Of a stretch of 32,119 nucleotides of DNA, positions 11,693 to 32,066 are shown one piece after another. The stretch covers positions 78,110-110,228 of the forward strand of contig JAFECP010000020.1 in assembly GCA_018242105.1 (NCBI GenBank). The letters are read 5' to 3'. The notes beneath the pieces are model-generated. The model was not told the DNA's origin. It saw only the letters and a list, made by a program, of their open reading frames with translations, and made no database searches. This stretch comes from Pseudomonadota bacterium. Its GTDB lineage: Bacteria > Pseudomonadota > Alphaproteobacteria > Micropepsales > Micropepsaceae. Position 1 is the stretch's first letter. Each line of letters starts with the position of its first letter. The position numbers were made by a program, and so were the translations under genes.

Positions 11693-11706
11693 GGGACGCT
11701 CTCTTG

Positions 11707-12717
11707 TTACCAGTGAATCATGGGAAGCCCGGAAACCGGGCTGATGAAGCAGGGAAGGCTGGTGGCTTTCAGTGTGCCGAGATAAACGGTGCGCAGATCC
11801 ACGCCGCCAAAGGTCACGCTGGTGAGCCACGGCGCGATTTTCCCGCCGGTGGCCGCCATCGTGTCGGCACTAACAAGCTTGCCGCTGTCGAATTCAGCGT
11901 CGAGCCGTAGAGCGGCTTCGCGATCGCCATCTTCAAACAGGGACAACAGCTCGCCTTCGGGGGTGATCGCCACCAGCCGGTCGGCGAAGATCATGGTTGC
12001 CCAAAGATTGCCGTAAGCGTCGAAGGCAATACCGTCGATAAACCCGGATCCGAGAGAACTCGGCCCGTAGATTTCGCGATCGCGCAGCGACCCATCCGGC
12101 ATCACGCGAAGGCGCGTTATCCGCCGCGCGCAGGTTTCGGCTACATAGAGCCATTCCTCTTTCGCATCGAACCGTATCTCGTTGGTGAAATGAAAACCGT
12201 CGGCGACGATGCGGGCGCCGTGGCTATCGATCAACACGATATAGCCGTCGGCCAGATCATTGCGGATCGCATCGGCCCACGGATTGATTTTCGTGGAGAT
12301 AGTGATCCAGAGGCGATCCTTGCTGTCGCGCAGAACGAAGTTCACTTTGCCCAACGGCTTTCCATCGATGCTATCGGCAAGGACATGGCTTTTGCCGTCG
12401 CGCGTCATCAAATCCAGCGTGTCCGTGCCGAAATTCGCGATCAGCAAGTCGCCGTTGCGCGCGAAGGCGAGACCGTTCGGTAGCGTGCCTTCGAACAGGC
12501 TGGGCGCGTCTCCCGGCTTTGCACCTTTGTCCTGTAACGGTGTGACGAGGTTCTGGCTGCCGTTGGGCCGGATGTGCATGACGCCGCCACGCGCGTCCGC
12601 CACCCACAGAGAATCGTCGCGTTCCGCGAGGATGCATTCGGGGCGCGAGAGATCATAGCCGACATGGCGGATGGCTGCCGGGTTGAGTTGCCAGCCTTTG
12701 AGCGGATTGGGGCCCAT
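11707..12717 (-). CDS. SMP-30/gluconolactonase/LRE-like sugar lactonase
   Basis: A 336-residue six-bladed propeller of the SMP-30 family, which hydrolyse sugar lactones with a divalent metal. Probable metal ligands by family position are Glu27 (RPECIL), Asn179 (FTNEIRFD) and Asp228 (GFIDGIAFD); an LPNGLAF segment lies at 79-85. No signal peptide is seen, so it is likely cytoplasmic. Start chosen at ATG 12717: it follows the esterase TGA (12721-12719) by one base, with AAGGCGA inside the esterase end as ribosome binding site. This implies translational coupling. The upstream extension of the frame is Arg-rich, overlaps the esterase and is rejected. In this operon it may open a lactone produced from an oxidised sugar; substrate uncertain. 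Confidence 0.82.
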   Translation of the reverse strand: MGPNPLKGWQLNPAAIRHVGYDLSRPECILAERDDSLWVADARGGVMHIRPNGSQNLVTPLQDKGAKPGDAPSLFEGTLPNGLAFARNGDLLIANFGTDTLDLMTRDGKSHVLADSIDGKPLGKVNFVLRDSKDRLWITISTKINPWADAIRNDLADGYIVLIDSHGARIVADGFHFTNEIRFDAKEEWLYVAETCARRITRLRVMPDGSLRDREIYGPSSLGSGFIDGIAFDAYGNLWATMIFADRLVAITPEGELLSLFEDGDREAALRLDAEFDSGKLVSADTMAATGGKIAPWLTSVTFGGVDLRTVYLGTLKATSLPCFISPVSGLPMIHW

Positions 12718-18384: not shown

Positions 18385-19944
18385 ATGCAACCCTATGCTC
18401 TGACCGTAGACAAATTTCTGGATCACGCCGCCAAGTGGTGGGGACGCCGCGAGATCGTAACGGCCGAAGCAGGCCGTGTCGGCTATGCCGAACTGAGAGC
18501 ACGCAGCAATCGTCTATCGGGCGCTTTCAAAGCCCTTGGCCTGCGCTTCGGTGATCGCATCGGCACGCTCGCGTGGAATACGCAGCATCACATCGAAATC
18601 TATTACGGCGCGATGGGCGCGGGCTTCGTCTGCCACACGCTCAATCCGCGCCTGACGATTTCGCATCTCGCCGCGATGGTGAACGAAGCGGAAGACCGCA
18701 TGCTGATGGTCGGCGCAGGCCTCGCTGGCATCGCGCGCGATCTCGCCCTGCGCTGCCCCTGCATCGAAACCGTGGTCTTCCTCGACGGCGAAGCGCCGCA
18801 ATGGGAGATGAGCGGAGATTGCCGCACATTCGCATTCGAAGCGCTGCTGCAAAAGTACGGTGCGCAAACCCGTTGGGGCGATTTCGACGAAGGGGCCGCT
18901 GCCGGCCTCTGCTACACGTCCGGAACGACGGGCGCGCCCAAGGGCGTACTCTACACCCATCGCTCTACCTATCTTCATACATTGCGGTCGCTTCAGGCCG
19001 ACGCCATTGCATTGACGCCCGCGGATTCGGTTCTGGTGGCTGTTCCTCTGTTCCATGTGAATGGCTGGGGCTTCTCTTTCGCGGGACCGGCGGTTGGCGC
19101 AAAGCTGGTGCTCCCGGGCCGTTACACCGATGGCGCGCGTCTGGCGAAGCTCATTCGCGAAGAAGATGTGACGATTGCCGCCGGTGTGCAGACGATCTGG
19201 CTGGGGCTGCTCGATCATCTCGATGCGACGGGCGAAGAGGTTCCCACGCTGAAGCGGGTGATTATCGGCGGCTCCAGATGCCCCGACGCCTTGATCCAGC
19301 GAATGGAAGAGCGTCTCCAAGCGCGCGTACAGACCAGTTGGGGCATGACGGAGCTTTCACCGCTCGGCACGGTTGCGCCGGCACATGGTTCGGAGCGCGC
19401 GGTGGCATCGGGCCGGCCGCCGATGGGATTGGACCTGAAGCTCACAGACGCAGGAGGCCGCACGCTCGCACAGCAGAGAAATGTCAGCGGCCATTTGAAG
19501 GTGAAAGGCGCCAGCGTTGTGAGCCGCTATTTCAAAGCCGAGAACGACGTGCTGGATGCCGAAGGCTATTTTGACACCGGCGACCTCGCCATGATCGACG
19601 ACGACGGCAACCTCACGATCACGGGGCGCTCCAAGGACCTGATCAAATCGGGCGGCGAATGGATCAATCCGGGCGAGATCGAGCGCATCGTGGGACGCTT
19701 GCCCGGCGTCGGGCAGGTCGCGGTTATCGGCCGTGCGGACCCGAAATGGGGCGAGCGTCCGATCCTGATCGTGGAGCTGCAGAAGAGCCATACGCTCGAC
19801 GAGGAGGCACTGCTGGATGCGCTGCGCGGCAATGTCGCGGACTGGTGGATACCGGATGAAGTGATCCAGGTGGCGGACATGCCGCTGGCGGCCACAGGCA
19901 AGATTGACAAGAATCGTCTTTGCGCGGAATACGCTAGAGCCTAG
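18385..19944 (+). CDS. AMP-dependent acyl-CoA synthetase (ligase)
   Basis: A 519-residue member of the ANL adenylation superfamily that activates a carboxylic acid to acyl-AMP and then acyl-CoA. Core motifs: P-loop YTSGTTGAPKG (177-187), SWGMTELSP (318-326), YFDTGDL (395-401), hinge GRSKDLIKSGGEWI (414-427) and catalytic Lys506 in ATGKIDK. The length and the GGSRCPDALIQRMEE segment resemble medium-chain or methylthiopropionyl/fatty-acyl ligases; aryl acids remain possible. Soluble, cytoplasmic. The start MQPYALTVDKF is the first in frame after the terminator and has no convincing Shine-Dalgarno. No clear promoter fits between terminator and start. Next to the esterase operon it could activate an acid released by ester cleavage, but fatty acids are equally possible. 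A TetR regulator follows. Confidence 0.88.
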   Translation: MQPYALTVDKFLDHAAKWWGRREIVTAEAGRVGYAELRARSNRLSGAFKALGLRFGDRIGTLAWNTQHHIEIYYGAMGAGFVCHTLNPRLTISHLAAMVNEAEDRMLMVGAGLAGIARDLALRCPCIETVVFLDGEAPQWEMSGDCRTFAFEALLQKYGAQTRWGDFDEGAAAGLCYTSGTTGAPKGVLYTHRSTYLHTLRSLQADAIALTPADSVLVAVPLFHVNGWGFSFAGPAVGAKLVLPGRYTDGARLAKLIREEDVTIAAGVQTIWLGLLDHLDATGEEVPTLKRVIIGGSRCPDALIQRMEERLQARVQTSWGMTELSPLGTVAPAHGSERAVASGRPPMGLDLKLTDAGGRTLAQQRNVSGHLKVKGASVVSRYFKAENDVLDAEGYFDTGDLAMIDDDGNLTITGRSKDLIKSGGEWINPGEIERIVGRLPGVGQVAVIGRADPKWGERPILIVELQKSHTLDEEALLDALRGNVADWWIPDEVIQVADMPLAATGKIDKNRLCAEYARA

Positions 19945-20013
19945 GCGGACGGACGGGGCCGTTCGCCGACAGGCTGGAACATGCTCCATGGCGCACGCAA
20001 TGAAGGCCGATCA

Positions 20014-20709
20014 ATGACGCGAACCAAGGCGAAAACTCCCCGCAAAGCCAAAAAGAAGAAAGCCCCCCGCACCAAGGCCGAACAACGTGCCGAGACGCTG
20101 GAGCAGATTCTGGATGCGGCCGAATTCCTGTTTTCCAAGCACGGTCTTCACGGCGTGACCTTGCGCGACGTGGCGCTGAAGGTCGGCGTGCACACATCGC
20201 TGATGCACTATTATTTTGAGGACAAATTTGCACTGTTCAAGACGGTATTCGTCCGGCGCGCGCCGGTGACCAGCGAGCGCCGCATGAAGGCCCTCGACCA
20301 GTATGAGAAGAATGCCAAAGGCAAGCCAACGGTGGCCGGTGCGCTACACGCCTTTCTGGACACAGACTACGACCTCTACATGAGCGGCGGTGAGGGGTGG
20401 AAAAATTACGGTGCCTTCGGTTCGCAATTGTCTAACACGCCGGAAGGCGCGGCGATGTTCGATGAACATTTCGATCCCGTGGTGCTGCGCCTGATCGGAA
20501 TATTGCGGAAGGCGATGCCGGACGTTCCTGAAGAGAACATATTCTGGGGTTATCACTTCATAACCGGCAGCTTCATGCACTCGCTGTCGCGCAGCGGCCG
20601 TCTCGATCGCCTTTCCAATGGATTGTGCAAGTCCGGCGATCTTGACGCCGTGAAAGCGCGCATGGCGGAATTCATGGCAGCGGGATTTTCCTCGCTGCGC
20701 AAGCGGTAG
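20014..20709 (+). CDS. TetR family transcriptional regulator
   Basis: A 231-residue regulator. After a very basic N-terminal tail (KAKTPRKAKKKKAPRTKAEQ) comes a TetR HTH at about 26-75 (ILDAAEFLFSKHGLHGVTLR, VGVHTSLMHYYFEDKFALF), then an all-helical ligand domain with GYHFITGSFMHSL. Start chosen at ATG 20014 because GAAGG sits seven bases upstream; an ATG at 19981 has only a weak site. It follows the acyl-CoA ligase on the same strand after 69 bp, and TetR proteins beside acyl-CoA ligases often respond to acyl-CoAs, so self and ligase control is plausible. A 7-2-7 imperfect palindrome (CGGACGG/CCGTTCG) at 19950-19965 could be its site or just a hairpin. The lysine-rich extension is unusual. 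Confidence 0.85.
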   Translation: MTRTKAKTPRKAKKKKAPRTKAEQRAETLEQILDAAEFLFSKHGLHGVTLRDVALKVGVHTSLMHYYFEDKFALFKTVFVRRAPVTSERRMKALDQYEKNAKGKPTVAGALHAFLDTDYDLYMSGGEGWKNYGAFGSQLSNTPEGAAMFDEHFDPVVLRLIGILRKAMPDVPEENIFWGYHFITGSFMHSLSRSGRLDRLSNGLCKSGDLDAVKARMAEFMAAGFSSLRKR

Positions 20710-20726
20710 CGATCTTCCACGAAGGG

Positions 20727-22061
20727 CTAGTGGCGCGAGTCCGCCGCGAGGGCCGCCGTGTCGATTTGCGGATCGTGTATCGCCGCCACCGCACGCATCT
20801 CAATACGATATGCACGGCCGCTGAGTGCGAAGAGCAAAACCCCGGACAGCATGGCGACACCGCCAGAGATAAGAAAGAACTCCGGCACCGGCACCACACT
20901 CCACAATGCGCCCATCGCGCCGGCCGCGAGGTTTCCGAAAAACGCGGCCATGAACCAGGCGGCGATCGCCGTGGCGGCGAATTCCAGCGGCGCAAGCTTG
21001 CCGAACAATCCCAATCCCACCGGGAGGATGAACAACTCCCCGACAGTGTAGACGAAGAAGAACAGAACCAGCCATAGCCAGTTTGCGCGCGCATCGCCCG
21101 ACGTATGGGCGATGAGGGCGAGAAGCAGATAGGACGCGCCGACGATGAACGCGCCGGTCGCCATCTTGCCGATGCTGCCGGGTTCCTTTCCGTGCTGCGC
21201 CTTGCGTGTCCAATAGGCCACGATCACCGGCGTGAAGAGGAAGATCACAAGCGGATTGAGCGACTGGAACCACGTCATCGGGATCGAAAAGCTGCTGCCG
21301 ACGTGACGGTCCACGCCGCTGTCCGCCCACAACGCCACCGTATTGCCGGACTGTTCGTAAGAAGCGCGGAAAATCACCACGATCGCGATCACCGCCAGCA
21401 GCAGAAGATAGACTTCCAGCTTCGCGCGCGGCCTTTCGCCGGAAACGATGCGCGCCGGCGCGTCCTTCGGATCGTTGTTCTTGGGAAGATATCGCGACCC
21501 GCCGAGATAGGTGACCATGCCGATCACCATGCCGATGCCGGCCAGTGCGAAGCCCCAATGCCAGCCATAGATCTCGCCCACGGTGCCGCAAACGAAGGGC
21601 GCGAGGAAGGCGCCCAGATTGATGCCGACATAGTAGATGTTATAGGCGGTGGCGCGGCGCGGATCGTCCGGCGCGTAAAGTTGATTGATCTGGCTAGCGA
21701 GGCTCGGCAGGAAAAGGCCGTTGCCGACGGCGATGGTGGCGAGTGCGACGTAGAACGCCGGCTCGAACGCCATGAGGAAATGCCCCAGCGCCATGATCGA
21801 GCCGCCGATGATCACCGCGCGCCGCCGCCCGAGCCAGCGATCCGAGATCACGCCGCCGATCAATGGCGTGAAATAGACGAAGGACGAATAGAGGCCATAG
21901 ATATAGGAAGAATGCGTCTGTGAGATCAGCAGCTCTTTCGTCATATAATAGACGAGCAGGGCACGCATGCCGAAGAAGGAGAATTGGTCCCACATCTCGG
22001 TGAGAAAGAGGATCGTCAGCCCGCGGGGATGGCCGAACCAGTCCTTCGGCGCCGCGTTCAT
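20727..22061 (-). CDS. POT/PTR2 family peptide transporter
   Basis: A 444-residue proton-dependent oligopeptide transporter of the inner membrane, with about twelve to fourteen helices. Family landmarks: GMRALLVYYM after helix 1, YNIYYVGINLGAF, YEQSGNTVALWAD, SLNPLVIFLFTP and GELFILPVGLGLFGKLAP. The helix-1 motif, normally ExxER(F/Y), reads E22-M-W-D25-Q26-F, so the second acid is Asp and the Arg is Gln. That motif is tied to proton coupling, so coupling may differ. The start ATG overlaps the stop of the dehydrogenase gene as ATGA (22061-22058), meaning translational coupling. Import of di- or tripeptides, perhaps with D-residues, for the upstream dehydrogenase and the nearby M81 peptidase is a context inference. 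It belongs to the same broad family as MlrD. Confidence 0.9.
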   Translation of the reverse strand: MNAAPKDWFGHPRGLTILFLTEMWDQFSFFGMRALLVYYMTKELLISQTHSSYIYGLYSSFVYFTPLIGGVISDRWLGRRRAVIIGGSIMALGHFLMAFEPAFYVALATIAVGNGLFLPSLASQINQLYAPDDPRRATAYNIYYVGINLGAFLAPFVCGTVGEIYGWHWGFALAGIGMVIGMVTYLGGSRYLPKNNDPKDAPARIVSGERPRAKLEVYLLLLAVIAIVVIFRASYEQSGNTVALWADSGVDRHVGSSFSIPMTWFQSLNPLVIFLFTPVIVAYWTRKAQHGKEPGSIGKMATGAFIVGASYLLLALIAHTSGDARANWLWLVLFFFVYTVGELFILPVGLGLFGKLAPLEFAATAIAAWFMAAFFGNLAAGAMGALWSVVPVPEFFLISGGVAMLSGVLLFALSGRAYRIEMRAVAAIHDPQIDTAALAADSRH

Positions 22062-23194
22062 ACACGGCTCCGCGCGGCAACGGCAAAACGCTGCGGCGAG
22101 AGCTGGGCGATGGGGATGTCATCGATGTCCGGTGTTTTGTCTCGTACGAGCGCTGCAGCCAGCCTTGCGGCGGCCGGCGCAGTTTGAATGCCGTAGCCGC
22201 CTTGTCCCGCAAGCCAGAAGAAGCCGTGTTGCACGGGATCAAACCCTATGACGGGGGAACGATCCGGCGCGAAGGAGCGAAGCCCCGCCCAGCGTTTGCG
22301 GATGCGCGTGAATTTGAGGGTTGTGGCGGTTTCGACGCGGTCGATAGCGACCGCGATGTCCAATTCTTCCGGCTGCACGTCGCAAGCGCTGACTGGCGTT
22401 TCATCCGCGGGAGAGATCAGCAAGAGCCCCGCGTCGGGTTTCATATAAAACGTCTCGTCGATATCGATCACCATCGGCCAACTGCCGGCCGCGAGGTTGC
22501 CCGGAAGCTCCACCAGAATCGCCGTGCGGCGGCAAGGACGGATGTTCAAAGGCGCAGCACCGGCTTTTCGCGCAATAGCATCGGCCCATGCGCCGGCGGC
22601 ATTTATGACGATCGGCGCAGAAAACATTCCACTAGACGTCTGGACGATCCACCGTTCCCCCTGCCGGGCAAGTGCCTGCACGTCAGCATTCAGGACAAGC
22701 TGACCTCCTGCCTTGCGGAAGCGGCGTAGATAGCCCTGATGCAGCTCATTCACGTCCACATCGGCGGCATCGTCTTCAAACACCGCGGCGCTGACATAGT
22801 CCGGCCGGAGAATAGGGCAGGCGCGCAACGCTTCCTCTCGCGTCAATCGCCGGATGGAACCGGCAAGATCGGAATTCCGCGCGAAGTCTTCCAGATGTGG
22901 CACCTGTTCTTCTCGCGCGATATAGAGAGAGCCGCGCGGCCGCACCAGTGCGTGTGCGGTGAAGCCTTCCGGTGGCGCATAAAAGAAATCCCGGCTCGCG
23001 CGGGAGAGCGCACGCACCACGCTGTTGCCGTAGATCTCCGAAAACAGCGCGGCCGAACGTCCGGTGGAGTGATAGCCCGGAGATTCCTCACGCTCCAGAA
23101 CGGCGACGCGCCGGGTCTGCGCAAGCTCCGCCGCCACAGAGGCGCCCGCGATGCCCGCGCCAATCACGATGATGTCGAATGTTTCGATGCTCAT
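22058..23194 (-). CDS. FAD-dependent D-amino-acid dehydrogenase, DauA-like (DAO fold)
   Basis: A 378-residue flavoprotein with an N-terminal dinucleotide fold, VIGAGIAGAS (10-19), and GYHSTGRSAA (40-49). It closely resembles, from memory, Pseudomonas D-arginine dehydrogenase DauA across its length: LHQGYLR, VINAAGAW, FYMKPDAG, WAGLRSF, GQGGYGIQT. It should oxidise a D-amino acid (or a related amine) to the imino acid, passing electrons to a quinone or other acceptor. Residues matching DauA Tyr53, Arg222, Tyr249 and Arg305 are kept (Tyr55, Arg223, Tyr250, Arg306). DauA Glu87 and His48, which contact the arginine side chain or active site, are Ser89 and Leu50 here, so a basic substrate is unlikely. 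Start chosen at ATG 23194, next to the FAD fold; no good Shine-Dalgarno. Coupled to the POT gene by ATGA. Confidence 0.85.
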   Translation of the reverse strand: MSIETFDIIVIGAGIAGASVAAELAQTRRVAVLEREESPGYHSTGRSAALFSEIYGNSVVRALSRASRDFFYAPPEGFTAHALVRPRGSLYIAREEQVPHLEDFARNSDLAGSIRRLTREEALRACPILRPDYVSAAVFEDDAADVDVNELHQGYLRRFRKAGGQLVLNADVQALARQGERWIVQTSSGMFSAPIVINAAGAWADAIARKAGAAPLNIRPCRRTAILVELPGNLAAGSWPMVIDIDETFYMKPDAGLLLISPADETPVSACDVQPEELDIAVAIDRVETATTLKFTRIRKRWAGLRSFAPDRSPVIGFDPVQHGFFWLAGQGGYGIQTAPAAARLAAALVRDKTPDIDDIPIAQLSPQRFAVAARSRV

Positions 23195-23328
23195 GCGTGA
23201 GTCAGACCATCGCAATCCGGTTTTGCCCGCCACGCGGTGGATAATTCCGGATGCTGTCAATGACGGATTGCATCGGGAACGTGGACCTTTTCGGCTTGAG
23301 CTTTCTATGCTGCTGTAGTTTTATTATA

Positions 23329-23344
23329 GAGAAATATTTTTCTC
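23329..23344. promoter_or_regulatory. Inverted repeat in the dehydrogenase / M81 peptidase divergent spacer
   Basis: GAGAAA-TATT-TTTCTC, a perfect 6-bp inverted repeat, ends 22 bp before the peptidase ATG in an AT-rich part of the 172-bp spacer (23195-23366). Its place near the likely promoter suggests an operator. ATATTTTT and GAAAATAG, both near it, also occur in the XRE/TonB spacer at 25545-25552 and 25584-25591. Confidence 0.35.
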
Positions 23345-23366
23345 AATCGGAAAATAGAGATATCGC

Positions 23367-24830
23367 ATGCGTGTTTTTGTTGCCGGGCTGATCACCGAAA
23401 CGAATACCTTCGCGCCATGGCCAACGGGCCTGCAGGGGTTTTCGCAGGAAGGTCCGTTCCACGGCGATGTCACCACACGGGGGCGGGATTCCGAGATGGG
23501 CGTGCTGGCGGCGGCCTGGAAAGAACTTTGCCGTGAGAAGGGATTCGAATTTGTCGAAAGCCTTTTCGCCATTGCCCAACCTTCGGGACGCGCGGTGCAA
23601 AGCGTCTATGAGAATTTTCGCAACGAGATTCTGAACGATTTGAAAGTCAAAGGGCCGTTCGATGTCGTTCTGTTGTTCCTGCATGGCGCGATGGTGTCGC
23701 AGGACTGTGACGATTGCGAAGGCGATATTCTGGCCCGGGTACGCGAGATCGTGGGTCCCAAGGTGGCGGTCGGTGCGGAGCTCGATCCGCATTGTCACCT
23801 GACGCCGCTGATGGTGGAGAAGGCGGACGCCATCATCCTGATGAAGGAATACCCGCATATCGACTATATGGAGCGGGGCAAAGAGCTGTTCGATATCTGC
23901 ACCGGCATGGCGGACCGCAAGCTCAAACCGGTCTCATACCTGTTCGATTGCCGCATGGTCGGCTTTTATCCCACCACAACGGAGCCCATGCGCAGCCTCG
24001 TGGACAAATGCTCCGCGGCCGAGAAACGGCCAGGCGTGCTATCGGTGAGCATCGGCCACGGCTTTCCTTGGGGTGACACGCCGGAAACCGGAACGAAAGT
24101 GCTTGTCGTCACCGATGGCAATGCCTCCCTCGCGCAATCGCTCGCCACTGAGATCGGCCATGACATTTATGCCAATCGGGAGGCGTTGCTGCCAAAATTT
24201 CCAAACATCGAGGGAGCGTTAGGCGCCGCGCGTGAAACCAATGGTTGCGCGGTTCTGGCCGACACTGCGGACAATGCGGGCGGCGGCGCGCCAAGCGATA
24301 ACGTCTCGCTTTTGCGCGCGATGATCGAGTACAAGGTGGAAGACGCGGTGTTCGGCTGCATCTGGGATCCGATAGCCGTCCGCACTTGTGCGGAAGCCGG
24401 TGTGGGGGCGACACTGCCGCTGCGCATTGGCGGAAAATGTGGGCCGGCGTCGGGCGATCCGATCGATGTAACCGCAACTGTAAAAGCTTTCCGCGCCGAT
24501 CACGATCAGCAGGGACTGGGACCGGCGCGCTCGCCGATGGGCGACTCCGTATGGATTGAAATCGAAGGGATCGATGTCGTGCTCATGTCCACGCGCACGC
24601 AAACCTTCGCGCCTGATGCGTTTACAGGGCTGGGAATAGACCTCAAGGGCAAGCGCATCATTGCGCTGAAATCGAGTTGGCATTTCCAGGCGCTGTTTGG
24701 ACCGATCGCCGGCCGCATCGTTCCGGTGGCGACGCCAGGGGCGATTCAAATGGATTTTGCCGCGATCGATTATCGCAAGAAGCGCGATCAGGACTTCTTC
24801 CCCCGCGTGAAAAATCCACTGGGGCTTTAG
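23367..24830 (+). CDS. M81 family metallopeptidase (MlrC-like)
   Basis: A 487-residue protein of the M81 family, named after microcystinase MlrC, a zinc peptidase that cleaves linear microcystin and Adda-tetrapeptide. No signal peptide: cytoplasmic. Visible motifs: GLITETNTF (7-15), LHGAMVSQD with DDCEGD (105-120), ELDPHCHLT (138-146), EYPHIDYMERG (161-171), GHGFPWGDTPETGTK (230-244) and NAGGGAPSDN (303-312). These Asp/His clusters are the expected metal sites. Start ATG 23367 has a TAGAGA-type site ten bases upstream. Many proteobacteria hold M81 homologues with no microcystin link, so the natural substrate may be another small peptide or amide. It is divergent from the dehydrogenase-POT pair, and its stop overlaps the convergent XRE-cupin gene by four bases (24827-24830). 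Confidence 0.88.
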   Translation: MRVFVAGLITETNTFAPWPTGLQGFSQEGPFHGDVTTRGRDSEMGVLAAAWKELCREKGFEFVESLFAIAQPSGRAVQSVYENFRNEILNDLKVKGPFDVVLLFLHGAMVSQDCDDCEGDILARVREIVGPKVAVGAELDPHCHLTPLMVEKADAIILMKEYPHIDYMERGKELFDICTGMADRKLKPVSYLFDCRMVGFYPTTTEPMRSLVDKCSAAEKRPGVLSVSIGHGFPWGDTPETGTKVLVVTDGNASLAQSLATEIGHDIYANREALLPKFPNIEGALGAARETNGCAVLADTADNAGGGAPSDNVSLLRAMIEYKVEDAVFGCIWDPIAVRTCAEAGVGATLPLRIGGKCGPASGDPIDVTATVKAFRADHDQQGLGPARSPMGDSVWIEIEGIDVVLMSTRTQTFAPDAFTGLGIDLKGKRIIALKSSWHFQALFGPIAGRIVPVATPGAIQMDFAAIDYRKKRDQDFFPRVKNPLGL

Positions 24831-25522
24831 GGCTTCGTCCTGCGCTTGCGCCCGGGTTTTGGCTTCTCCGCGCTGCCTTCGCGCCGCACCGCTTCCATCA
24901 ACTGCGACTCCGGCCCGGAGCAGATGGAGAGAATGCGGCAGGGACCGGCCTCGCCTTTGAGATAGGCGTGTCCCATGCCGCTGTCAAAATAGAGTGAGTC
25001 TCCTTTTCGCAGAACGAGCGGTGCATAGAGTTCGGAGTGAAATTCAACCGTGCCCTCCAAAACATAGGCATATTCCTCGCCGGAGTGGCGGATCATCTCG
25101 CCGAACTCATTGAGTGTGCGCTTTCTCAGTTCGGCGATTACCGGAACGAAGCGCTTGTTGAGGAAATCGGCCACAGGATAGATGTGGCCGTAATTTTCGG
25201 TGCCGATTTCCTGGCCCTGTCCAGCGGGTGTGAAGCTGCGGCGTCCGCTGACCGTGCCGGGCACACTCGCGATTTGGGGTGTGAAAAGCTGTGAGATGTC
25301 CACGCCCAGGCCGGCGCTGATGCGCGCGAGCTTGTCGTAGCTGAGGGACATCCGGTCGTTCTCGATCTTGGAAAGGGTCGAAACCGGCAGCTCGGTACGC
25401 TTGCTCACTTCGGCCAGCGTCCAGCCGCGCTGCATGCGCAAGGCTTTCAGGGCCGCGCCTGGCCGCGCAGAGGTGCGGCCAGCCACAACGCGATCTGCCA
25501 GTTTCAAACGGTTTTGCGACAT
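24827..25522 (-). CDS. XRE-cupin transcriptional regulator
   Basis: A 231-residue protein: XRE/Cro-C1 HTH at about 22-80 (ALRMQRGWTLAEVSKRTELP, STLSKIENDRMSLSY) and a C-terminal cupin at about 140-205 (EEYAYVLEGTVEF, LRKGDSLYFDSGMGHAY). This class often controls catabolism or uptake of amino acids, amines or peptides, with the cupin sensing a ligand. The C-terminus is a basic tail, KPKPGRKRRTKP. Start chosen at ATG 25522, with GGAGA ten bases upstream; the open frame extends further but covers the divergent TonB receptor promoter. It is head-to-head with that receptor and tail-to-tail with the M81 peptidase, so both, and the dehydrogenase-POT pair, are its likely targets. Confidence 0.88.
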   Translation of the reverse strand: MSQNRLKLADRVVAGRTSARPGAALKALRMQRGWTLAEVSKRTELPVSTLSKIENDRMSLSYDKLARISAGLGVDISQLFTPQIASVPGTVSGRRSFTPAGQGQEIGTENYGHIYPVADFLNKRFVPVIAELRKRTLNEFGEMIRHSGEEYAYVLEGTVEFHSELYAPLVLRKGDSLYFDSGMGHAYLKGEAGPCRILSICSGPESQLMEAVRREGSAEKPKPGRKRRTKP

Positions 25523-25648
25523 GATCCGAGTCTCCGTCCCAAGGATATTTTTAATCGTCTCGAGTGTCGAATTTAGCATATCTGAAAATAGTTGCATTAT
25601 TGGAAAAAATCGGTGACATTTGTCCCGATGTGCTAATTGGGGGAAAAG
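25523..25648. promoter_or_regulatory. Divergent promoter region of XRE-cupin gene and second TonB receptor
   Basis: This 126-bp spacer is AT-rich compared with its surroundings and must hold both outward promoters. It contains ATATTTTT (25545-25552) and GAAAATAG (25584-25591), the same short words seen just upstream of the M81 peptidase. They could be parts of a common XRE-cupin site. I find no long perfect palindrome here. Confidence 0.4.
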
Positions 25649-27781
25649 ATGGCACGCCGGATTGCAAGCGTACTTCTCGGGTCGATTTCGCTGATAGCGC
25701 TGACCGCGCCGGTATGGGCTGCGCCGGACTCTATCGAAGAGGTGGTTGTCACTGCGAGCAAACGCGCCGAAAAACTTCAGAACGTGCCGATGAGCGTCAG
25801 CGCGGTGTCCGGCGACGCGCTGCAGCATCTTCAGGCCACCAGCTTCGCCGATCTGGTATCGCTGATTCCGTCCATGGCTTCGTCGGCGTCCGATCCGGGC
25901 CACACGCGCCTGATCCTGCGCGGCATCAACACCAACGGCATCGGTGCCACGCTCGGCACCTATATCGATGAGACGCCATTTGGTTCCTCCAATGCGCTCG
26001 CCAACGGTGCGGTTACCACGCCGAATATCGACACGTTCGATATGGCGCGTGTCGAAGTGCTACGCGGGCCGCAGGGCACCCTATACGGCGCCACCACGCT
26101 GGGCGGTCTGTTGAAGTTCGTCACCAACGCGCCGGATCCCAGCGGGTTCGACGATCTCTTCCAGGTCGGCATCAACGATGTGGCCCATGGCGGTATCGGA
26201 TGGTCGGGCAAGGGCATGCTCAATATTCCGCTGGCCGACAATTTTGCCGTGCGTGGCGTACTCTATCACAACGACACATCCGGCTTCATTGACGACCCGG
26301 TCCGCGGCAAGAAAAACATCAACGGCACGAAGGATACCGGCGGCCGCTTGTCCGCGCTCTGGCAGGCGACCCCCGATCTGACGATCCGCGTCACCGGCCT
26401 TGCACAGAACCTCACGCTCGATGGCTCCAGCGCTGTCGATGTGACTTACGTTCCGTCAGCGACCTCGCCATCGGGATTGGCCTATGGGCTGACGCCGTTC
26501 TCCGGTCCCTATCAGCAATCGCGCACGGCGCCCGAACCTTCAACGGTCCGGTATCGTCTTTACAACACGACGATCGATTGGAATCTCGGATTCGGCACGC
26601 TGACTTCGGCGACCAGTTACGGCAAGTTCACGGATCACTCGTCGCAAGACGTGACGGCGCTTTACGGCACGCTGCTCTTCACCGACTTCCGCCAGAAGAA
26701 ATTCACGCAGGAACTGCGGCTGGCTTCCCCCGACAATCAAAAGCTCGAATGGCTTGCCGGTTTCTACTACACGCATGAAACCGAAGGGCAGTTACAGAAC
26801 ATCGCGCCCACGCGCCATGGCGTCGGCCTCGGCACGCTGACCTTCGATTCCGGTTATGCCGAAACGGCGGGGTTCCTCGACTTCACCTATCACTTCACCG
26901 ATGCCTTCGACATCGCGCTTGGCGGCCGCTACGCCGGCAACAGTCAGCATGCCAACGAGTTCGGGCTTGCCAGCGCCAGGGGCGATTCATCGGAAAACGT
27001 GTTCACCTGGTCGATCGCGCCCAGTTGGCACCTCAACGAAAATGCGATGGTCTATGCGCGGGTGGCCAAGGGTTATCAGCCTGGCGGGCCGAACGTGCTG
27101 CCGCCCGCGCCGCCCCCGGCCGTACCCAAGTCGTTCAACTCCGACACGCTGATAAACTACGAATTGGGCTTCAAGGACACGCTGGACGATGGCCGCCTCT
27201 CGCTGGATGTCGATGCGTTCTACATCAACTGGAACAGCATCCAGCTTCTAACCTACATCAATAGCTACAGCGTCAATGGCAATGGCGGAACGGCGACGAG
27301 CAAGGGCTTCGAATGGAATGCCGCTTGGACACCGGTGGATGGTCTCGATTTCCGCTTCGGTGGCGCCTATGTGGATGCCTACCTGACTGCCGACACCGAT
27401 CCGATCTTGATTGGCGCCAAGAACGGCGATCCGCTACCCTATGTTCCCAAGTGGAGCATGGCGCTTGATGGCGACTATCACTTTGCGCCGACCGGCGATT
27501 TTGCTCCCTTCGTCGGCACGAGCTGGCGCTATGTCGGCCAGCGCTTCACCAGCTTCGATGCCTCGTTCGGCCAGACGCGTTATCCTAGCTACAACGAGTT
27601 CGATCTGCGTGCAGGCGTGGATTACAAGGATTGGGCGGTTGAGTTCTACGCCAAGAACGTCACCGACAAGCGCGCATTCTCCCAGACCTTCCTGGGCGGC
27701 TCGGCCGCGAATGGCGGGGCGCCGGTGGTCTATATCGATCAGCCGCGCACCATCGGCGTAACGCTCACGGCCAAGCTTTGA
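25649..27781 (+). CDS. TonB-dependent outer-membrane receptor
   Basis: A 710-residue receptor. Signal peptide 1-24 (PVWA/A), TonB-box region SIEEVVVTASKR (28-39), plug domain (about 45-165, with VEVLRGPQGTLYGATTLGG), then a barrel with YARVAKGYQPGGPN, NYELGFKDTLDDG and AVEFYAKNVTDKR, ending in TLTAKL. Start chosen at ATG 25649, with GGGGGA just before it; an in-frame TTG four codons earlier is rejected because it sits inside the ribosome binding site. No signalling extension. Lacks siderophore-specific features I would recognise, and resembles the many sphingomonad receptors placed beside catabolic genes. Head-to-head with an XRE-cupin regulator and upstream of a periplasmic hydrolase, it probably imports a peptide or peptide-like compound; ligand not proven. 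Confidence 0.92.
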   Translation: MARRIASVLLGSISLIALTAPVWAAPDSIEEVVVTASKRAEKLQNVPMSVSAVSGDALQHLQATSFADLVSLIPSMASSASDPGHTRLILRGINTNGIGATLGTYIDETPFGSSNALANGAVTTPNIDTFDMARVEVLRGPQGTLYGATTLGGLLKFVTNAPDPSGFDDLFQVGINDVAHGGIGWSGKGMLNIPLADNFAVRGVLYHNDTSGFIDDPVRGKKNINGTKDTGGRLSALWQATPDLTIRVTGLAQNLTLDGSSAVDVTYVPSATSPSGLAYGLTPFSGPYQQSRTAPEPSTVRYRLYNTTIDWNLGFGTLTSATSYGKFTDHSSQDVTALYGTLLFTDFRQKKFTQELRLASPDNQKLEWLAGFYYTHETEGQLQNIAPTRHGVGLGTLTFDSGYAETAGFLDFTYHFTDAFDIALGGRYAGNSQHANEFGLASARGDSSENVFTWSIAPSWHLNENAMVYARVAKGYQPGGPNVLPPAPPPAVPKSFNSDTLINYELGFKDTLDDGRLSLDVDAFYINWNSIQLLTYINSYSVNGNGGTATSKGFEWNAAWTPVDGLDFRFGGAYVDAYLTADTDPILIGAKNGDPLPYVPKWSMALDGDYHFAPTGDFAPFVGTSWRYVGQRFTSFDASFGQTRYPSYNEFDLRAGVDYKDWAVEFYAKNVTDKRAFSQTFLGGSAANGGAPVVYIDQPRTIGVTLTAKL

Positions 27782-28005
27782 GGGACGTCATGCAACTCCG
27801 TTTTGTTGGTTCGGTGTTGCTTGGGAAAATCTAGCCGATTTCTTGAGTGGCACGATCTCGCCGATCTCGACGGGCCGGTCTTTCTGGCGAAAGATCGCGC
27901 CGGTTGCGATCCATCAAACCGGTACAGAGCCATATGGGCCCGCCGGTTGAGGCAATCCGGAACGGTCACGGCAAGCAGCCGGTTCGTAGTTTGGGAAGAA
28001 ACGCC

Positions 28006-30027
28006 ATGACAAAAATAAAGCTTGTTGTTGCTCTTGCGCTTGCCGCCACCCTGGCTGGCTCTGCTTACGCTGCTGTGACGCCGCCCACGACGGGCCCCGC
28101 TACCACGCCGCCCGCTGCGACACCGGCGCCGGCGCCGGTGAGCATCGCACCGCCTGCAGCGAAAGCCGTGGCGCATGCGCTGACCGCGGAAGACTTGCAC
28201 ACCTTCTTCGACGGCATGGTGCCCTATGCGCTGCACAATGGCGACATCGCGGGCGCGACTTTCGCCATCGTGAAGGATGGCCACATCATTTTTGCGCAAG
28301 GCTATGGCTATGCCGACCTCAAGTCGAAGAAGCCGGTCGTTGCGGACCAGACCTTGTTCCGCCCCGGCTCGATCTCCAAGCTTTTCACCTGGACGTCGGT
28401 GATGCAGCTCGTCGAGCAGCACAAGCTCGATCTCGACGCGGATGTGAACACCTACCTCGACTTCAAGATTCCGGAAGCTTTCGGCAAGCCGATCACGCTG
28501 CGCAACATCATGACCCACACGGCGGGTTTCGAGGAAAGCATCAGCGAGCTCTTCCTTCAGAAGCCGGAACAGCAATACCCGCTCGGCGAATATCTGCAGA
28601 AACACATGCCGGAACGCATCTTCCCGCCGGGAAAGGTGGTTGCCTATTCGAACTATGCCACGACGCTGGCGGGATACATTGTGCAGCGCGTATCCGGCGA
28701 GGATTTCAACGACTATGTGGCCAACCACATCTTCAAACCCCTCGGGATGAGCAACTCCACGTTCAAACAGCTTCCGCCTCCGGCGCTGATGAAGAGCATG
28801 GCCACCGGGTACAAGCAGGCCTCCAATCCTACGCCCGTACCGTTCGAAGTCGTCGAAGCTGCGCCCGCCGGTGCGCTGTCGTCCACCGCCACCGATATGG
28901 CGCGCTTCATGATGGCTCACCTGAACGGCGGCCAATATGACGGTGCGCGCATCCTCAAGCCCGAAACGGTGAAGGAGATGCAAACCCGTAACTACACGCT
29001 AGCGCCCGGCCTGAACGGATTCGATCTGGGATTTTACGAGGAGAGCCGCAACGGCCATCACATCATCGGCCATGCGGGCGATACCGAGGCGTTTCACAGC
29101 GATCTGCATCTGATCCTCGACGCCAATACCGGCTTTTTCATGTCGCTCAACAGCGCTGGCAAGGAAGGTGCGGCGGAAGCGGTGCGCGTGGCGATCTTCC
29201 GCGCGTTCCTCGATCGCTACTTCCCATACACGCCGCCGGCGGAAAAGACGGTCGCCGATCCGAGCAAGGATGATGCACGCGTCGTGGGCTATTATATCGC
29301 CAGCCGCCGCAAGGATTCGGCGCTCGCACTTTTGTTCCAACTCGGGCAGACGGCGGTCTCCGAGCAACCCGACAAGACGATCACCGTGGAGATGCTGAAG
29401 GATTTCAGCGGAGCGCCCAAGAGGTGGCGCAACGTCGGCCCGCTCACCTATCGCGAAGCCGGCGGTCAGGCGCATCTAAAATTCGTGACGGGCGATGACG
29501 GCAATATCGACTACTTCACATCGGACGATTTCATCCCCGTCGAGCTTCTGCAGAGGACGCACGGGCTCTACCAGTTGAACGATCTGAAGCGGTTCGGCCT
29601 GAGCACGATACTCGTCTGCGCGCTCACGGTCGCCATCTGGTTCGGCGGCTGGATCGCGCGCCGCCGCTTCGGCAGATCGCTGGAGATGACCGATCGCCAG
29701 CGCCGGCTGCGGCTGGGTTCACGGCTCGGCGCGATGCTTTATCTCGCGGTGGTGGCGGGTTGGGTCGCGCTTCTCACTGCCATCCAGGCCGATGAAACGC
29801 TGCTGCTGGGCGGCAGGCTCAGCCCATGGCTGGCTGCGCTCTATGTGCTGGGTGCGCTCGCCTTCCTTGGCGGGTTGGCGATGATCGCGAACGGGGTGCT
29901 GCGTGCACTGGGCGGTCCCGGCGGCTGGCTTGCGCGCGCCGGCGACGTCGTGCTCGCGCTTGCAGGGCTTTATGGTGTGTGGGCGATCTGGGCTTATGGC
30001 TTCGCCAACTTCCACTTCAATATCTGA
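28006..30027 (+). CDS. S12 (class C beta-lactamase fold) serine hydrolase with C-terminal membrane domain
   Basis: A 673-residue protein. Signal peptide 1-22 (GSAYA/A), a Pro/Ala/Thr-rich linker (24-54), then a penicillin-recognising serine hydrolase domain (about 60-405): SxxK as Ser122-Ile-Ser-Lys125, YxN as Tyr214-Ser-Asn216 and HxG as His356-Ala-Gly358, all intact. After about residue 425 comes a separate region with four hydrophobic segments near 532-550, 573-592, 608-632 and 646-668. The catalytic domain should be periplasmic and anchored to the inner membrane by this tail. Possible activities are D-aminopeptidase, esterase or beta-lactamase; MlrB of microcystin degraders is in the same broad family. 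Start ATG 28006 follows GGAAGA. It lies 224 bp after the receptor, probably the same direction of expression. The 224-bp spacer (27782-28005) holds no gene I can support. Confidence 0.88.
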   Translation: MTKIKLVVALALAATLAGSAYAAVTPPTTGPATTPPAATPAPAPVSIAPPAAKAVAHALTAEDLHTFFDGMVPYALHNGDIAGATFAIVKDGHIIFAQGYGYADLKSKKPVVADQTLFRPGSISKLFTWTSVMQLVEQHKLDLDADVNTYLDFKIPEAFGKPITLRNIMTHTAGFEESISELFLQKPEQQYPLGEYLQKHMPERIFPPGKVVAYSNYATTLAGYIVQRVSGEDFNDYVANHIFKPLGMSNSTFKQLPPPALMKSMATGYKQASNPTPVPFEVVEAAPAGALSSTATDMARFMMAHLNGGQYDGARILKPETVKEMQTRNYTLAPGLNGFDLGFYEESRNGHHIIGHAGDTEAFHSDLHLILDANTGFFMSLNSAGKEGAAEAVRVAIFRAFLDRYFPYTPPAEKTVADPSKDDARVVGYYIASRRKDSALALLFQLGQTAVSEQPDKTITVEMLKDFSGAPKRWRNVGPLTYREAGGQAHLKFVTGDDGNIDYFTSDDFIPVELLQRTHGLYQLNDLKRFGLSTILVCALTVAIWFGGWIARRRFGRSLEMTDRQRRLRLGSRLGAMLYLAVVAGWVALLTAIQADETLLLGGRLSPWLAALYVLGALAFLGGLAMIANGVLRALGGPGGWLARAGDVVLALAGLYGVWAIWAYGFANFHFNI

Positions 30028-30037
30028 GAGGAGCCCA

Positions 30038-30100
30038 ATGCGATCCCTGCTTACGGCGCGGCGGTTGCCGGATTTTTCGGCCCGTCCGGCACAGTTCTAA
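30038..30100 (+). CDS. Possible 20-residue small ORF
   Basis: A short frame, MRSLLTARRLPDFSARPAQF, starts ten bases after the serine hydrolase stop behind a good GAGAGG ribosome binding site. It resembles nothing I know. It may be a small translated ORF, the 5' stub of a lost gene, or chance. Weak support. Confidence 0.25.
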   Translation: MRSLLTARRLPDFSARPAQF

Positions 30101-30118
30101 GGGCTTCAGAATGCGGAG

Positions 30119-30136
30119 ACCCGTACCATTGCGGGT
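30119..30136. terminator. Weak hairpin between convergent genes
   Basis: ACCCGT and GCGGGT can pair (five bp plus one G-U) around a 6-base loop, followed on the + side by GTTTAC, in the short spacer between the hydrolase (+) and the symporter (-) genes. It is short and lacks a good T-tract, so it is only a candidate bidirectional terminator. Confidence 0.25.
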
Positions 30137-30138
30137 GT

Positions 30139-31359
30139 TTACAGGTCTGCCGCTTCCATGCTTGCGCTGCCTTCCCACGCGTTGACCACCACGCAAGCGA
30201 CGGCGTTGCCGACGATGTTCGTCGCGCTGCGGCCCATATCGAGGATGTGATCGACAGCGAGCACCAGCAGCAATCCGGATTCCGGCAAATGGAAATAGGG
30301 TAGCGCCGCCGCGATGACGACCAGCGAGGCGCGCGGCACACCGGCCATGCCTTTGCTTGTCACCATCAGCAGAAGCAGCATCATCACCTGTTGCCCCCAG
30401 GACAGATCGATCCCGTAGGCTTGCGCGATGAAGAGGATCGCAAAGGTGCAATACATCATCGAACCGTCGAGATTGAACGAATAGCCCAGCGGCAGCACGA
30501 AGCTTACGATCCGCCGCGGCAGGCCGATGCCTTCCAGCTTTTCGAGCAGTTGCGGATAGGCCGCCTCCGAACTTGCCGTGGAGAAAGCCAGCAGCACAGG
30601 GCTACGGATGGCGATGGACAACGCATTGTCGCGGCGCACGGCATAGCCGGCAGCCAGCATCAACAGCCACAGCAGGATCAAGGCGCCATAGAAGCCGAGC
30701 ACGAATTTCGCATAGACGCCCAAGATGCCCGCGCCCTGCGTCGCCACCGTCGAGGCAAGCGCCGCAAACACCGCGAATGGCGCCGTCATCATCACATAGC
30801 CGGTCACGCGCAGCATGATCGATGCGATCTGCTCGACCAGCGCCAGCACCGCGGTCGCGCGCTCCTTCGCAGCGGCGATCGCCGTGCCGACGAAGCAGGA
30901 GAACACGACGATCTGAAGAATCTCGTTATTCGCCATGGCCTCGATGGCGGAGCGGGGGACCAGATGGGTGACGAAATCCGATAGGGAGAAGGTCGCGGCG
31001 ATGTCGGTCTTGCCGGTCGTGGGCAGGGCCAATCCAACGCCCGGCTGCAACAGATGGACCATCGCAAGCCCGAGCGACAGCGACACCAGCGAGGCGAACA
31101 CGAACCACAGGATCGTCTTGCCGCCCACGCGCCCGATCGCGGCGGCGCCTTCCATATGGGCGATGCCCGCGACAAGGGTGGAAAACACCAGCGGAGCGAT
31201 AATCATCTTGATCAGACGCAGAAAAACATTAGTGACGATGCCGAGCCCGTCCGTCACGGATTGTATCTGCGGCGCGCTCAGCCATTCATGGCTTGCCAGC
31301 CCGAAGGCAATGCCGCCGATCATAGCGGCAACCAGCCAGAAGGCGAATTTGCGGTTCAT
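30139..31359 (-). CDS. DAACS-type acidic amino-acid:cation symporter
   Basis: A 406-residue inner-membrane symporter of the dicarboxylate/amino-acid:cation family. Landmarks: LRLIKMIIAPLVFSTLVAGI in helix 2, hairpin 1 AFSTASSEAAYP (258-269), helix 7 YSFNLDGSMMY (293-303), hairpin 2 SKGMAGVP (335-342) and helix 8 VDHILDMGRSATNIVG. Compared with the archaeal aspartate transporter GltPh, Asp370, Asp374, Arg377 and Asn381 match Asp390, Asp394, Arg397 and Asn401. Arg plus the second Asp indicate an acidic amino acid rather than a C4-dicarboxylate, since DctA-type carriers lack that Asp. Start chosen at ATG 31359, overlapping the racemase stop as ATGA; a longer reading lies inside the racemase gene and is rejected. 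Aspartate or glutamate, possibly the D-forms, is the likely substrate. Confidence 0.9.
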   Translation of the reverse strand: MNRKFAFWLVAAMIGGIAFGLASHEWLSAPQIQSVTDGLGIVTNVFLRLIKMIIAPLVFSTLVAGIAHMEGAAAIGRVGGKTILWFVFASLVSLSLGLAMVHLLQPGVGLALPTTGKTDIAATFSLSDFVTHLVPRSAIEAMANNEILQIVVFSCFVGTAIAAAKERATAVLALVEQIASIMLRVTGYVMMTAPFAVFAALASTVATQGAGILGVYAKFVLGFYGALILLWLLMLAAGYAVRRDNALSIAIRSPVLLAFSTASSEAAYPQLLEKLEGIGLPRRIVSFVLPLGYSFNLDGSMMYCTFAILFIAQAYGIDLSWGQQVMMLLLLMVTSKGMAGVPRASLVVIAAALPYFHLPESGLLLVLAVDHILDMGRSATNIVGNAVACVVVNAWEGSASMEAADL

Positions 31360-32066
31360 TGCGATGTGCCTTTGGCTTCTTCGACCGTCGCGCTGACGAG
31401 AGCATCGAGCGCATCCACGTTTGGCAGGCGCGAATTCGGCGGCCCAATCACCGAAAGCTCGGTGCACGCGATCAGGAACGCATCTGCGCCGGTGCGTTCA
31501 AGTGCTGCGGCGATGCCGTCGTAATCACGCCTGTGCTGATCTGTGAGGTTTCCGGCCTTTACGGCGCGAATAACGGCCAACATCCGCGCCTCATCCGCCG
31601 CGTTCGGAAAGAGCGCCGTGAACCCGGCTTCTTCCAACCGCGATTCATAAAGCCCGACCTTCTGCACGGCGGGCGAGGCGAGCATGCCGATCTTGCTGGG
31701 CCTGGGTGTTTGCGCCGCGAGCCGCGCGATGGACAGCGCCACCATATCGAGCACCGGTATCGAAACCGCTTTGGCGATGGCGGGCAGGTAATAATGCGCC
31801 GTGTTGCAGGGCATGGTGAGGAAGCTGGCGCCCTGTTTTTCCAGTCCGCGGGCCATCGCGATCAGCACCGGCAACGGGTCTTCGCCGCCGCCTTCGAGCA
31901 GAGCGGCAAGGCGCGAGGGAATTTTCGGATTGTTATCGACGAGAACGTGGATGTGATCGGCATCGTCGCGCGCCGGTGTAGCCGCGATGATGCGGCGCAG
32001 GAAGTCCGCCGTCGCTTCCGGCCCCATGCCGCCGATCACGCCGGCGATCTTTTCGCGCGGGTTCAC
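31356..32066 (-). CDS. Aspartate/glutamate racemase family protein
   Basis: A 236-residue cytoplasmic enzyme of the cofactor-independent Asp/Glu racemase superfamily. It has GVIGGMGPEAT (9-19), the first catalytic Cys87 in TMPCNTAHYY and the second Cys201 in IACTELSVIG. Both thiols and their motifs are intact, so two-base racemisation is expected, most likely of aspartate given the GGMGPEAT and PCNTAHYY signatures. Start is GTG 32066, which overlaps the stop of the preceding gene as GTGA; its own stop overlaps the symporter start as ATGA. The three genes are thus translationally chained. It probably interconverts L- and D-acidic amino acids brought in by the symporter. Confidence 0.9.
   Translation of the reverse strand: MNPREKIAGVIGGMGPEATADFLRRIIAATPARDDADHIHVLVDNNPKIPSRLAALLEGGGEDPLPVLIAMARGLEKQGASFLTMPCNTAHYYLPAIAKAVSIPVLDMVALSIARLAAQTPRPSKIGMLASPAVQKVGLYESRLEEAGFTALFPNAADEARMLAVIRAVKAGNLTDQHRRDYDGIAAALERTGADAFLIACTELSVIGPPNSRLPNVDALDALVSATVEEAKGTSQ

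Follow-up and report, generated by a model that had tools for sequence, protein, structure and literature searches.

A gene cluster predicted to scavenge D-amino-acid peptides shares parts with the microcystin mlr pathway but appears distinct from it

The mlrABCD genes of Sphingomonadaceae, which act on microcystin, are among the described systems closest to the locus studied here. Passages of a 2025 knock-out study assign MlrB to the periplasm, MlrC to the cytoplasm and MlrD to the inner membrane (PMC12474180), and part of another report describes MlrC as cleaving a peptide bond (PMC5852478). The bond that MlrC cuts is the one between Adda and Glu. The Adda-linked Glu is a D-residue and is iso-linked, as it is in the L-Ala-D-iGlu of the cell wall. 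Two further described systems bear on the locus: DgcN and DgcA form a route from D-Glu to L-Glu, as outlined in part of PMC10845958, and residue E87 of the D-arginine dehydrogenase DauA binds the guanidinium group, according to a passage of PMC11193025. Here we describe six genes in a 32,119-nucleotide stretch (the window) of a Micropepsaceae genome (GenBank assembly GCA_018242105.1, contig JAFECP010000020.1, positions 78,110 to 110,228), encoding a POT peptide carrier, a DauA-like D-amino-acid dehydrogenase, an M81 zinc peptidase, an XRE-cupin regulator, a TonB-dependent outer-membrane receptor and an S12 serine hydrolase. An earlier note on this DNA had read them as an mlr-related system for D-amino-acid-containing peptides with a different entry enzyme. 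We think it rather probable that the cluster scavenges short D-amino-acid peptides, most likely cell-wall (muropeptide) fragments; judged by sequence, it shares parts with the microcystin pathway but is distinct from mlr.

D-amino acids from the debris of cell walls form an important carbon and nitrogen pool, and the cluster, with its receptor, its hydrolase, its carrier, enzymes specific for D-residues and a regulator whose operator can be recognised, makes up a testable route for their use. The cluster also suggests a natural role for M81 outside microcystin. In the open-access literature of PubMed Central we did not find a link between M81 and D-amino acids, nor do the MlrC passages of PMC5852478 make one.

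Gene set, conservation and a shared operator-like site

All six open reading frames were confirmed where the earlier note had placed them (Table 1), with domains identified by Pfam and NCBIfam and the best solved homologues by Protein Data Bank (PDB) matches. We infer from them a possible route, together with its substrate and the direction of its regulation. The TonB receptor would carry peptides across the outer membrane, the membrane-anchored S12 enzyme would trim them in the periplasm, and the POT carrier would move di- and tripeptides to the cytoplasm. There the M81 zinc enzyme could cleave the peptide bond beside a D-residue and the DauA-like enzyme could oxidise the released D-amino acid to its keto acid, D-Ala being a likelier substrate than D-Arg. 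The XRE-cupin protein may bind a conserved palindrome and couple the promoters.

The gene set is kept in relatives, as the earlier note had anticipated. A search of 96 genomes of the family detected M81, at an E-value limit of 0.001, in 33, and three Rhizomicrobium-type relatives (G054, G048 and G045) have the complete set of six genes in one place. In G037, whose contigs are short, DauA, M81, XRE and the start of the TonB gene share one contig and TonB, an epimerase gene and S12 another; G023 has every cluster gene except POT, in rearranged order. In a class sample of 387 genomes, 57 (the window's own included) encoded an M81 with E no higher than 1e-110; apart from the window's, 83 such places were counted, and 40 regions were taken around the better-scoring ones in 35 genomes, some of them ending at contig ends. 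With the window's proteins as queries, DauA homologues (45-54% identity) were present in 11 of these 40 regions, which come from other alphaproteobacterial families, and in none of 20 control regions; a twelfth match, at 26% in L067, was left out of this count. The claim that the co-location exceeds chance was thus borne out. XRE-cupin genes followed the same pattern (8/40 against 0/20), and all eight regions have DauA. Four of the 40 have S12, in two cases at 41-42%, and none has the epimerase or POT.

Fifteen further M81 regions from Sphingomonadaceae held DauA in four cases, all with XRE, and XRE in seven, three of them without DauA; POT and the epimerase were found in none of the 15. Clustering the open frames of 52 regions, made up of the window, 11 regions from the family and the 40 class regions already used, gave DauA in 20 of 52 against 0 of 20 controls, a second count that is not independent of the first. 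Seen from the DauA side, 32 of the 35 M81-bearing genomes have any DauA, with 40 copies in all, and 12 copies lie within about 10 kb of M81. Two genomes of two other families (G106 and G239) combine M81, DauA, XRE, S12 and TonB with a major facilitator (MFS) carrier and no POT, and the cut contig of G220 shows M81, DauA, XRE and an MFS gene. M81-FAD oxidoreductase-XRE loci elsewhere in the Alphaproteobacteria, such as that of Sulfitobacter alexandrii (NZ_CP018080.1), likewise share M81, a DauA-like oxidoreductase, XRE-cupin and an operator-like palindrome with the window, but differ in using TRAP, ABC or MFS transport and often have no S12 or TonB gene. Among other M81 loci, L042 holds an M55 D-aminopeptidase (1379-2242), and L163 an Amidohydro_3 protein and a CobW-type metal chaperone (9468-11869) that may supply zinc to M81.

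The divergent promoter between DauA and M81 contains a palindrome-like site, TTTTCTCAATCGGAAAA, that is conserved in four relatives. A pattern derived from these same promoters, with up to three mismatches allowed, matches the window once where 0.04 matches would be expected, and the exact site occurs once per genome, before M81, in all five genomes concerned (G000, which is the window's own, G054, G048, G045 and G037). As an independent test, a matrix trained on only the five Rhizomicrobium M81 promoter sites was applied to the class-level loci. At 13 bits or more it recognised seven of the eight loci with the regulator, one of 32 without it and two of 20 controls (Fisher p 3e-6 for loci with against loci without the regulator); the corresponding counts were 7/8, 6/32 and 3/20 at 12 bits and 6/8, 0/32 and 1/20 at 16 bits. 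A 16-base form, TTTTCYNATNNGAAAA, gave 12 exact matches in 14 genomes, nine of them within M81-DauA-XRE loci and one further match, in G220, in a TonB-S12-epimerase-XRE locus. Only exact matches were counted, because hits became widespread once one mismatch was allowed, G234 giving 49 of them compared with 24 when the control was the reversed pattern; this pattern missed the window's own site, whose spacer is one base longer, and a second pattern was then used. Between the regulator and the TonB gene lies a second conserved element, GAAAATAGTTGCATTATTGGAAAA, its pattern again derived from these promoters. The common operator-like site argues for co-regulation of the cluster, in line with the coordinated expression that the earlier note expected.

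TonB-S12-epimerase-POT units and a probable epimerase remnant

In three relatives (G054, G023 and G037) a gene of the mandelate racemase family stands between the TonB and S12 genes. The G054 protein is DgcA-like, with 372 bits for the DgcA model (cut-off 400), and resembles L-Ala-D/L-Glu epimerase less, with 244 bits (cut-off 343); over the epimerases scored in these clusters and in the units described below the ranges are 314-393 and 180-259 bits, below both cut-offs throughout. The gap between TonB and S12 in the window contains a match to the C-terminal part of this epimerase at about the expected distance from S12 (E 0.001 in 400 nucleotides, composition correction off), which is a probable remnant of a lost epimerase gene.

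The same partners form a unit of their own elsewhere, which we call module B to set it apart from M81-DauA-XRE (module A). A phylum sample of 397 genomes held a long S12 protein at E up to 1e-130 in four, the window's own included. In the genus of G816, which belongs to another class, POT homologues occupy 13 places spread over 9 of the 20 genomes. All ten newly fetched loci from this genus are colinear on a single strand as TonB-S12-epimerase-POT, none of them with M81, DauA or XRE, and two more places keep S12, epimerase and POT together. Module B was also found on plasmids of Novosphingobium sp. EMRT-2 (NZ_CP039697.1) and Croceicoccus marinus (NZ_CP019603.1), which encode XRE, a serine hydrolase, a dipeptide epimerase, a peptide MFS transporter, a TonB receptor and a DUF1611 protein, the last being DgcN-like (446 bits against a cut-off of 480). 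DgcN-like genes occur in six module B loci, and XRE-cupin genes stand beside module B in eight (L118, L119, L122, L144, L148, L149, L160 and L161), with operator-like sites in L118 and L144. The window shares TonB, S12 (39-57%) and POT (47-68%) with these operons but has added M81 and DauA, and of the four module B genes it holds three intact and the epimerase as a probable remnant only. Its likeness to the DgcN-DgcA pathway lies in the DgcA-like racemase of some relatives' clusters and the DgcN-like genes of module B loci; the difference is that neither gene is intact in the window, and a DgcN-DgcA route in the window's own genome was rejected after no DgcN match was found in that 93.7% complete assembly.

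Together these data make the locus look like a fusion of module A with module B, after which the window's lineage probably lost the epimerase, so that D-residues would be met by hydrolysis and oxidation and not by epimerisation. The epimerase of module B and the M81-DauA pair of module A suggest two solutions to the D-residue that ordinary peptidases cannot handle. With the gene-set conservation, the DauA association and the operator-like site, the colinearity of module B supports the claim of a system for D-amino-acid peptides. The window's genome carries second copies of module B parts on contig 26 (L121, L147) and contig 78 (L146), comprising S12 at 41-46%, TonB, XRE-cupin and a 44% homologue of the epimerase.

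Enzyme features and comparison with the mlr loci

The window's M81 protein belongs to the M81 family, keeps all four zinc ligands of MlrC (E39, D167, H169 and H191 in passages of PMC9982164, one of which prints H196 as the fourth) and has no hydrophobic segment. An MlrC-like substrate pocket was rejected: W59, F67 and F96 are replaced by F, R and I, and, as members of the M81 family differ at all three, we make no call on specificity. A tree built from 88 M81 proteins, from which matches spanning fewer than 380 query residues were left out, puts the protein in a 12-row group (100/94) drawn from three families, every row from a locus with DauA. A second, quick tree with sphingomonad proteins, in which three of the distant L011-L031 loci were kept, has L184, a locus without DauA, among the nearest rows and leaves the 12-row group less firm.

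The DauA-like enzyme shares its family, flavin fold and carboxylate-binding arginines with P. aeruginosa DauA, keeping the equivalents of R222, R305, Y53 and Y249, but differs at the guanidinium-binding E87, where it has S, and at the proton-relay H48; the E87 that marks a D-arginine dehydrogenase is therefore absent. All 22 M81-linked copies replace H48 and E87 and keep the other four residues where covered. The S12 protein retains its SxxK, YSN and HxG motifs, begins with what looks like a signal peptide, shows four hydrophobic segments towards its C-terminus by hydropathy, resembles proteins of about 670 amino acids most closely and has the alkaline D-peptidase 4y7p as its second-best solved match. 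The POT carrier belongs to an ExxER-less subfamily, with EMWDQ at the motif and no motif arginine, whereas the solved POTs aligned with it carry ExxER. This motif is tied to proton coupling in POT carriers. Among the 120 nearest proteins in a large database, ExxER was seen in four for MlrD (one gap) and in none for the window's carrier (one gap). The ExxER-less subfamily is large and includes MlrD and the module B carriers.

Screening 397 genomes taken as Sphingomonadaceae (family inferred) for MlrC yielded two, at 100% and 90%. Both loci carry S12, POT, a CPBP (MlrA-type) protein and M81 in a row, the CPBP gene between POT and M81. The first of the two M81 proteins scores 1172 bits with the NCBIfam MlrC model (cut-off 999), the window's 338. 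Identities to the window are 39% for M81, 39% for POT, and 28% and 25% over part of the chain for S12. MlrC stands outside the window's M81 clade in both trees, and forcing it into the window's group, which was chosen after the tree had been seen, costs 47 log units (approximately unbiased test, p-AU 0.001). The 541-residue MlrB lies in a separate group from the module S12 proteins and the window's 673-residue enzyme in a quick S12 tree built from M81 and module loci and own-genome paralogues, with frames under 300 residues dropped; its neighbours there, L074, L075 and L177 (SH-aLRT 92), are a hint only. MlrD, by contrast, is set apart together with the module POTs from seven generic ones (100/100), two of which are near-identical. 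In a further tree of 40 of 120 MlrD relatives, 15 of 120 window relatives and six generic POTs, which left out L122, L152, L154, L156, L158, L159 and L191, the MlrD relatives included are scattered among the module POTs, and a long branch leads to MlrD itself. One of the mlr-carrying genomes, G1071, also holds L184, whose M81 is 54% identical to the window's and has no DauA match in the 20 kb region examined.

The kinship to Mlr proteins that the earlier note proposed is thus supported for the carrier at the level of MlrD's subfamily, and is not supported for S12 or, as regards MlrC specifically, for M81, both of which lie outside the MlrB and MlrC groups. An Mlr-like layout is also supported: as in mlrABCD, the window has an M81 enzyme predicted to be cytoplasmic, an ExxER-less POT and an S12 enzyme predicted to be periplasmic, in the same compartment order. 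The differences are the missing MlrA-type protein, the longer S12 with C-terminal membrane segments, and the linked DauA, XRE-cupin and TonB genes. No CPBP protein was found among the nine proteins scanned in 18385-31467, as the note had said; the genome has five PF02517 proteins, identified by family and not by comparison with MlrA, none in the window and one about 30 kb past its end on the same contig. A different entry enzyme, also proposed, would not be needed, because the relatives' epimerase suggests cell-wall-type dipeptides and not a cyclic toxin. Since M81 and S12 are not orthologues of MlrC and MlrB, the resemblance to mlr is one of toolkit and layout; as a statement of membership, the idea of an mlr cluster entered by another enzyme fails, while as a working principle it holds.

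Tentatively, the mlr pathway may itself have been assembled from a widespread toolkit for D-peptides of the cell wall, with MlrA as an added ring opener. MlrC could come from an M81 family with DauA-paired relatives, MlrD from ExxER-less POTs that elsewhere travel with S12 and a dipeptide epimerase, and MlrB from the S12 enzymes that such loci encode. The window's M81 might then cut the same type of X-D-Glu bond as MlrC, and the window would show M81, POT and S12 of this toolkit next to one another; among the regions compared, M81 and POT are paired only in the window's relatives and in mlr loci. If so, the cluster offers a possible origin for the microcystin pathway.

Competing explanations and surroundings of the cluster

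A variant cluster for degrading microcystin or another cyanopeptide with a different entry enzyme, as the earlier note proposed, we regard as very unlikely. M81, S12 and POT do lie together, in compartments predicted as for MlrC, MlrB and MlrD, the carrier is of MlrD's ExxER-less kind, POT adjoins M81 only in Rhizomicrobium and mlr loci among the regions compared, and the zinc ligands are kept; set against these are the distance of the two true mlr loci from the window in all three proteins, the rejected MlrC clade, the grouping of MlrB with other S12 proteins and the replaced pocket residues. The least probable of all is that two independent units, POT-DauA-M81-XRE and TonB-S12, became neighbours by chance, for although each is found apart in other genomes, several Rhizomicrobium genomes have both in one place, as do G106 and G239, where an MFS carrier replaces POT, and related XRE-cupin genes, joined in L118 and L144 by operator-like sites, accompany module B as well.

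More room, within what we still consider unlikely, goes to a cluster that serves the use of dipeptides in general, with D-stereochemistry as an incidental feature. POT carriers are not known as D-specific, and a Dpp-like ABC permease family, one member of which scans as BPD_transp_1, lies near M81 in 13 of 52 neighbourhoods against 2 of 20 controls; D-specific partners nevertheless recur, namely DauA, a DgcA-like racemase or dipeptide epimerase, DgcN and an M55 D-aminopeptidase. Catabolism of N-substituted D-amino acids or amides, with M81 amidohydrolase-like, DauA oxidising the product and the peptide genes mere neighbours, seems somewhat less likely still. It would suit plasmids of Sulfitobacter and Roseomonas, where M81 lies near Amidohydro_3 and CobW proteins with TRAP or ABC transport and not POT, but the M81-DauA pair is accompanied by S12 and TonB genes in Rhizomicrobium, G106 and G239, and MlrC itself cleaves a peptide bond.

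Several observations weigh against the scavenging of D-amino-acid peptides that we favour. The control regions come from only 12 genomes. DauA is missing from 29 of the 40 class and 11 of the 15 Sphingomonadaceae M81 regions, and XRE-cupin genes stand by M81 without DauA in L046, L176, L179, L187 and the Roseomonas plasmid. POT lies beside M81 in 3 of 12 family loci and in 0 of 55 elsewhere (0/40 and 0/15), mlr loci apart. The ten colinear module B loci contain no XRE-cupin gene (0/10). The epimerase is absent from the G048 and G045 clusters, and therefore an Ala-Glu-type substrate need not apply; DgcN was unmatched in all six Rhizomicrobium module genomes searched, two of them 81-86% complete. 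Loss of E87 and H48 was rejected as a mark of the module, since M81-unlinked DauA copies also lack H48 (20/20) and E87 (19/20), in 20 of 28 copies compared, two of which lie near a distant M81 (28-33%). Sequence does not reveal what S12 enzymes act on. The operator matrix misses the regulator locus L056 and gives one control region, the best of the controls, 19.4 bits.

Table 1. Features of the cluster, in positions of the window
Feature	Position	Strand	Remarks
POT/PTR2 peptide transporter	20727..22061	-	TIGR00924, 303 bits against cut-off 130
DauA-like flavin adenine dinucleotide (FAD) D-amino-acid dehydrogenase	22058..23194	-	DAO fold; best PDB match P. aeruginosa DauA, 323 bits
Predicted operator TTTTCTCAATCGGAAAA	23338..23354	+	DauA/M81 divergent promoter, 12 nucleotides upstream of M81 start
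M81 zinc peptidase	23367..24830	+	DUF1485 and MlrC_C; best PDB match MlrC 7ylq, 323 bits
XRE-cupin regulator	24827..25522	-	HTH_3 and Cupin_2; start MSQNRL
Second conserved element GAAAATAGTTGCATTATTGGAAAA	25584..25607	+	Between regulator and TonB receptor; operator half-site inside
TonB-dependent outer-membrane receptor	about 25649..27781	+	Pfam/NCBIfam; also in relatives
Probable remnant of epimerase/DgcA-like racemase	27854..27898	+	15 codons, 8 identical
S12 serine hydrolase	28006..30027	+	PF00144, 673 amino acids; SISK, YSN, HAG

M81 is divergent from POT-DauA, whose frames overlap by 4 nucleotides, and the regulator is divergent from the TonB-S12 pair. Two starts were placed from frame reading: the listed DauA frame extends to 23260 but probably starts at 23194 (MSIETF), and the listed regulator frame, up to 25903, is overlong.

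The window is part of a 3.2 Mb genome in 78 contigs. Among four named loci its M81 is closest to that of an unclassified proteobacterial metagenome genome (86%), the closest genus-named locus being from Rhizomicrobium (85%), and Rhizomicrobium names also head the list of S12 relatives; the host is a bacterium of soil type. Next to S12 lies an SDF sodium:dicarboxylate symporter (30139-31467) that could carry D-Glu, D-Asp or dicarboxylates; it was rejected as part of the system, not being found in L036-L039. Upstream, between 10385 and 20709, frames read as GH1-like, SMP-30-like, carboxylesterase-like, MFS and TonB receptor proteins, and a domain scan adds an AMP-binding ligase and a TetR regulator. 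The block of TetR, FadD-type ligase, MFS and esterase genes was likewise set aside, since it stands apart in L044, where the four recur as a group, as they do in part in L036, and so forms a separate conserved unit. Near its start (66-8807) the window holds a 2913-residue frame rich in glycine, with an end that resembles an autotransporter beta-domain.

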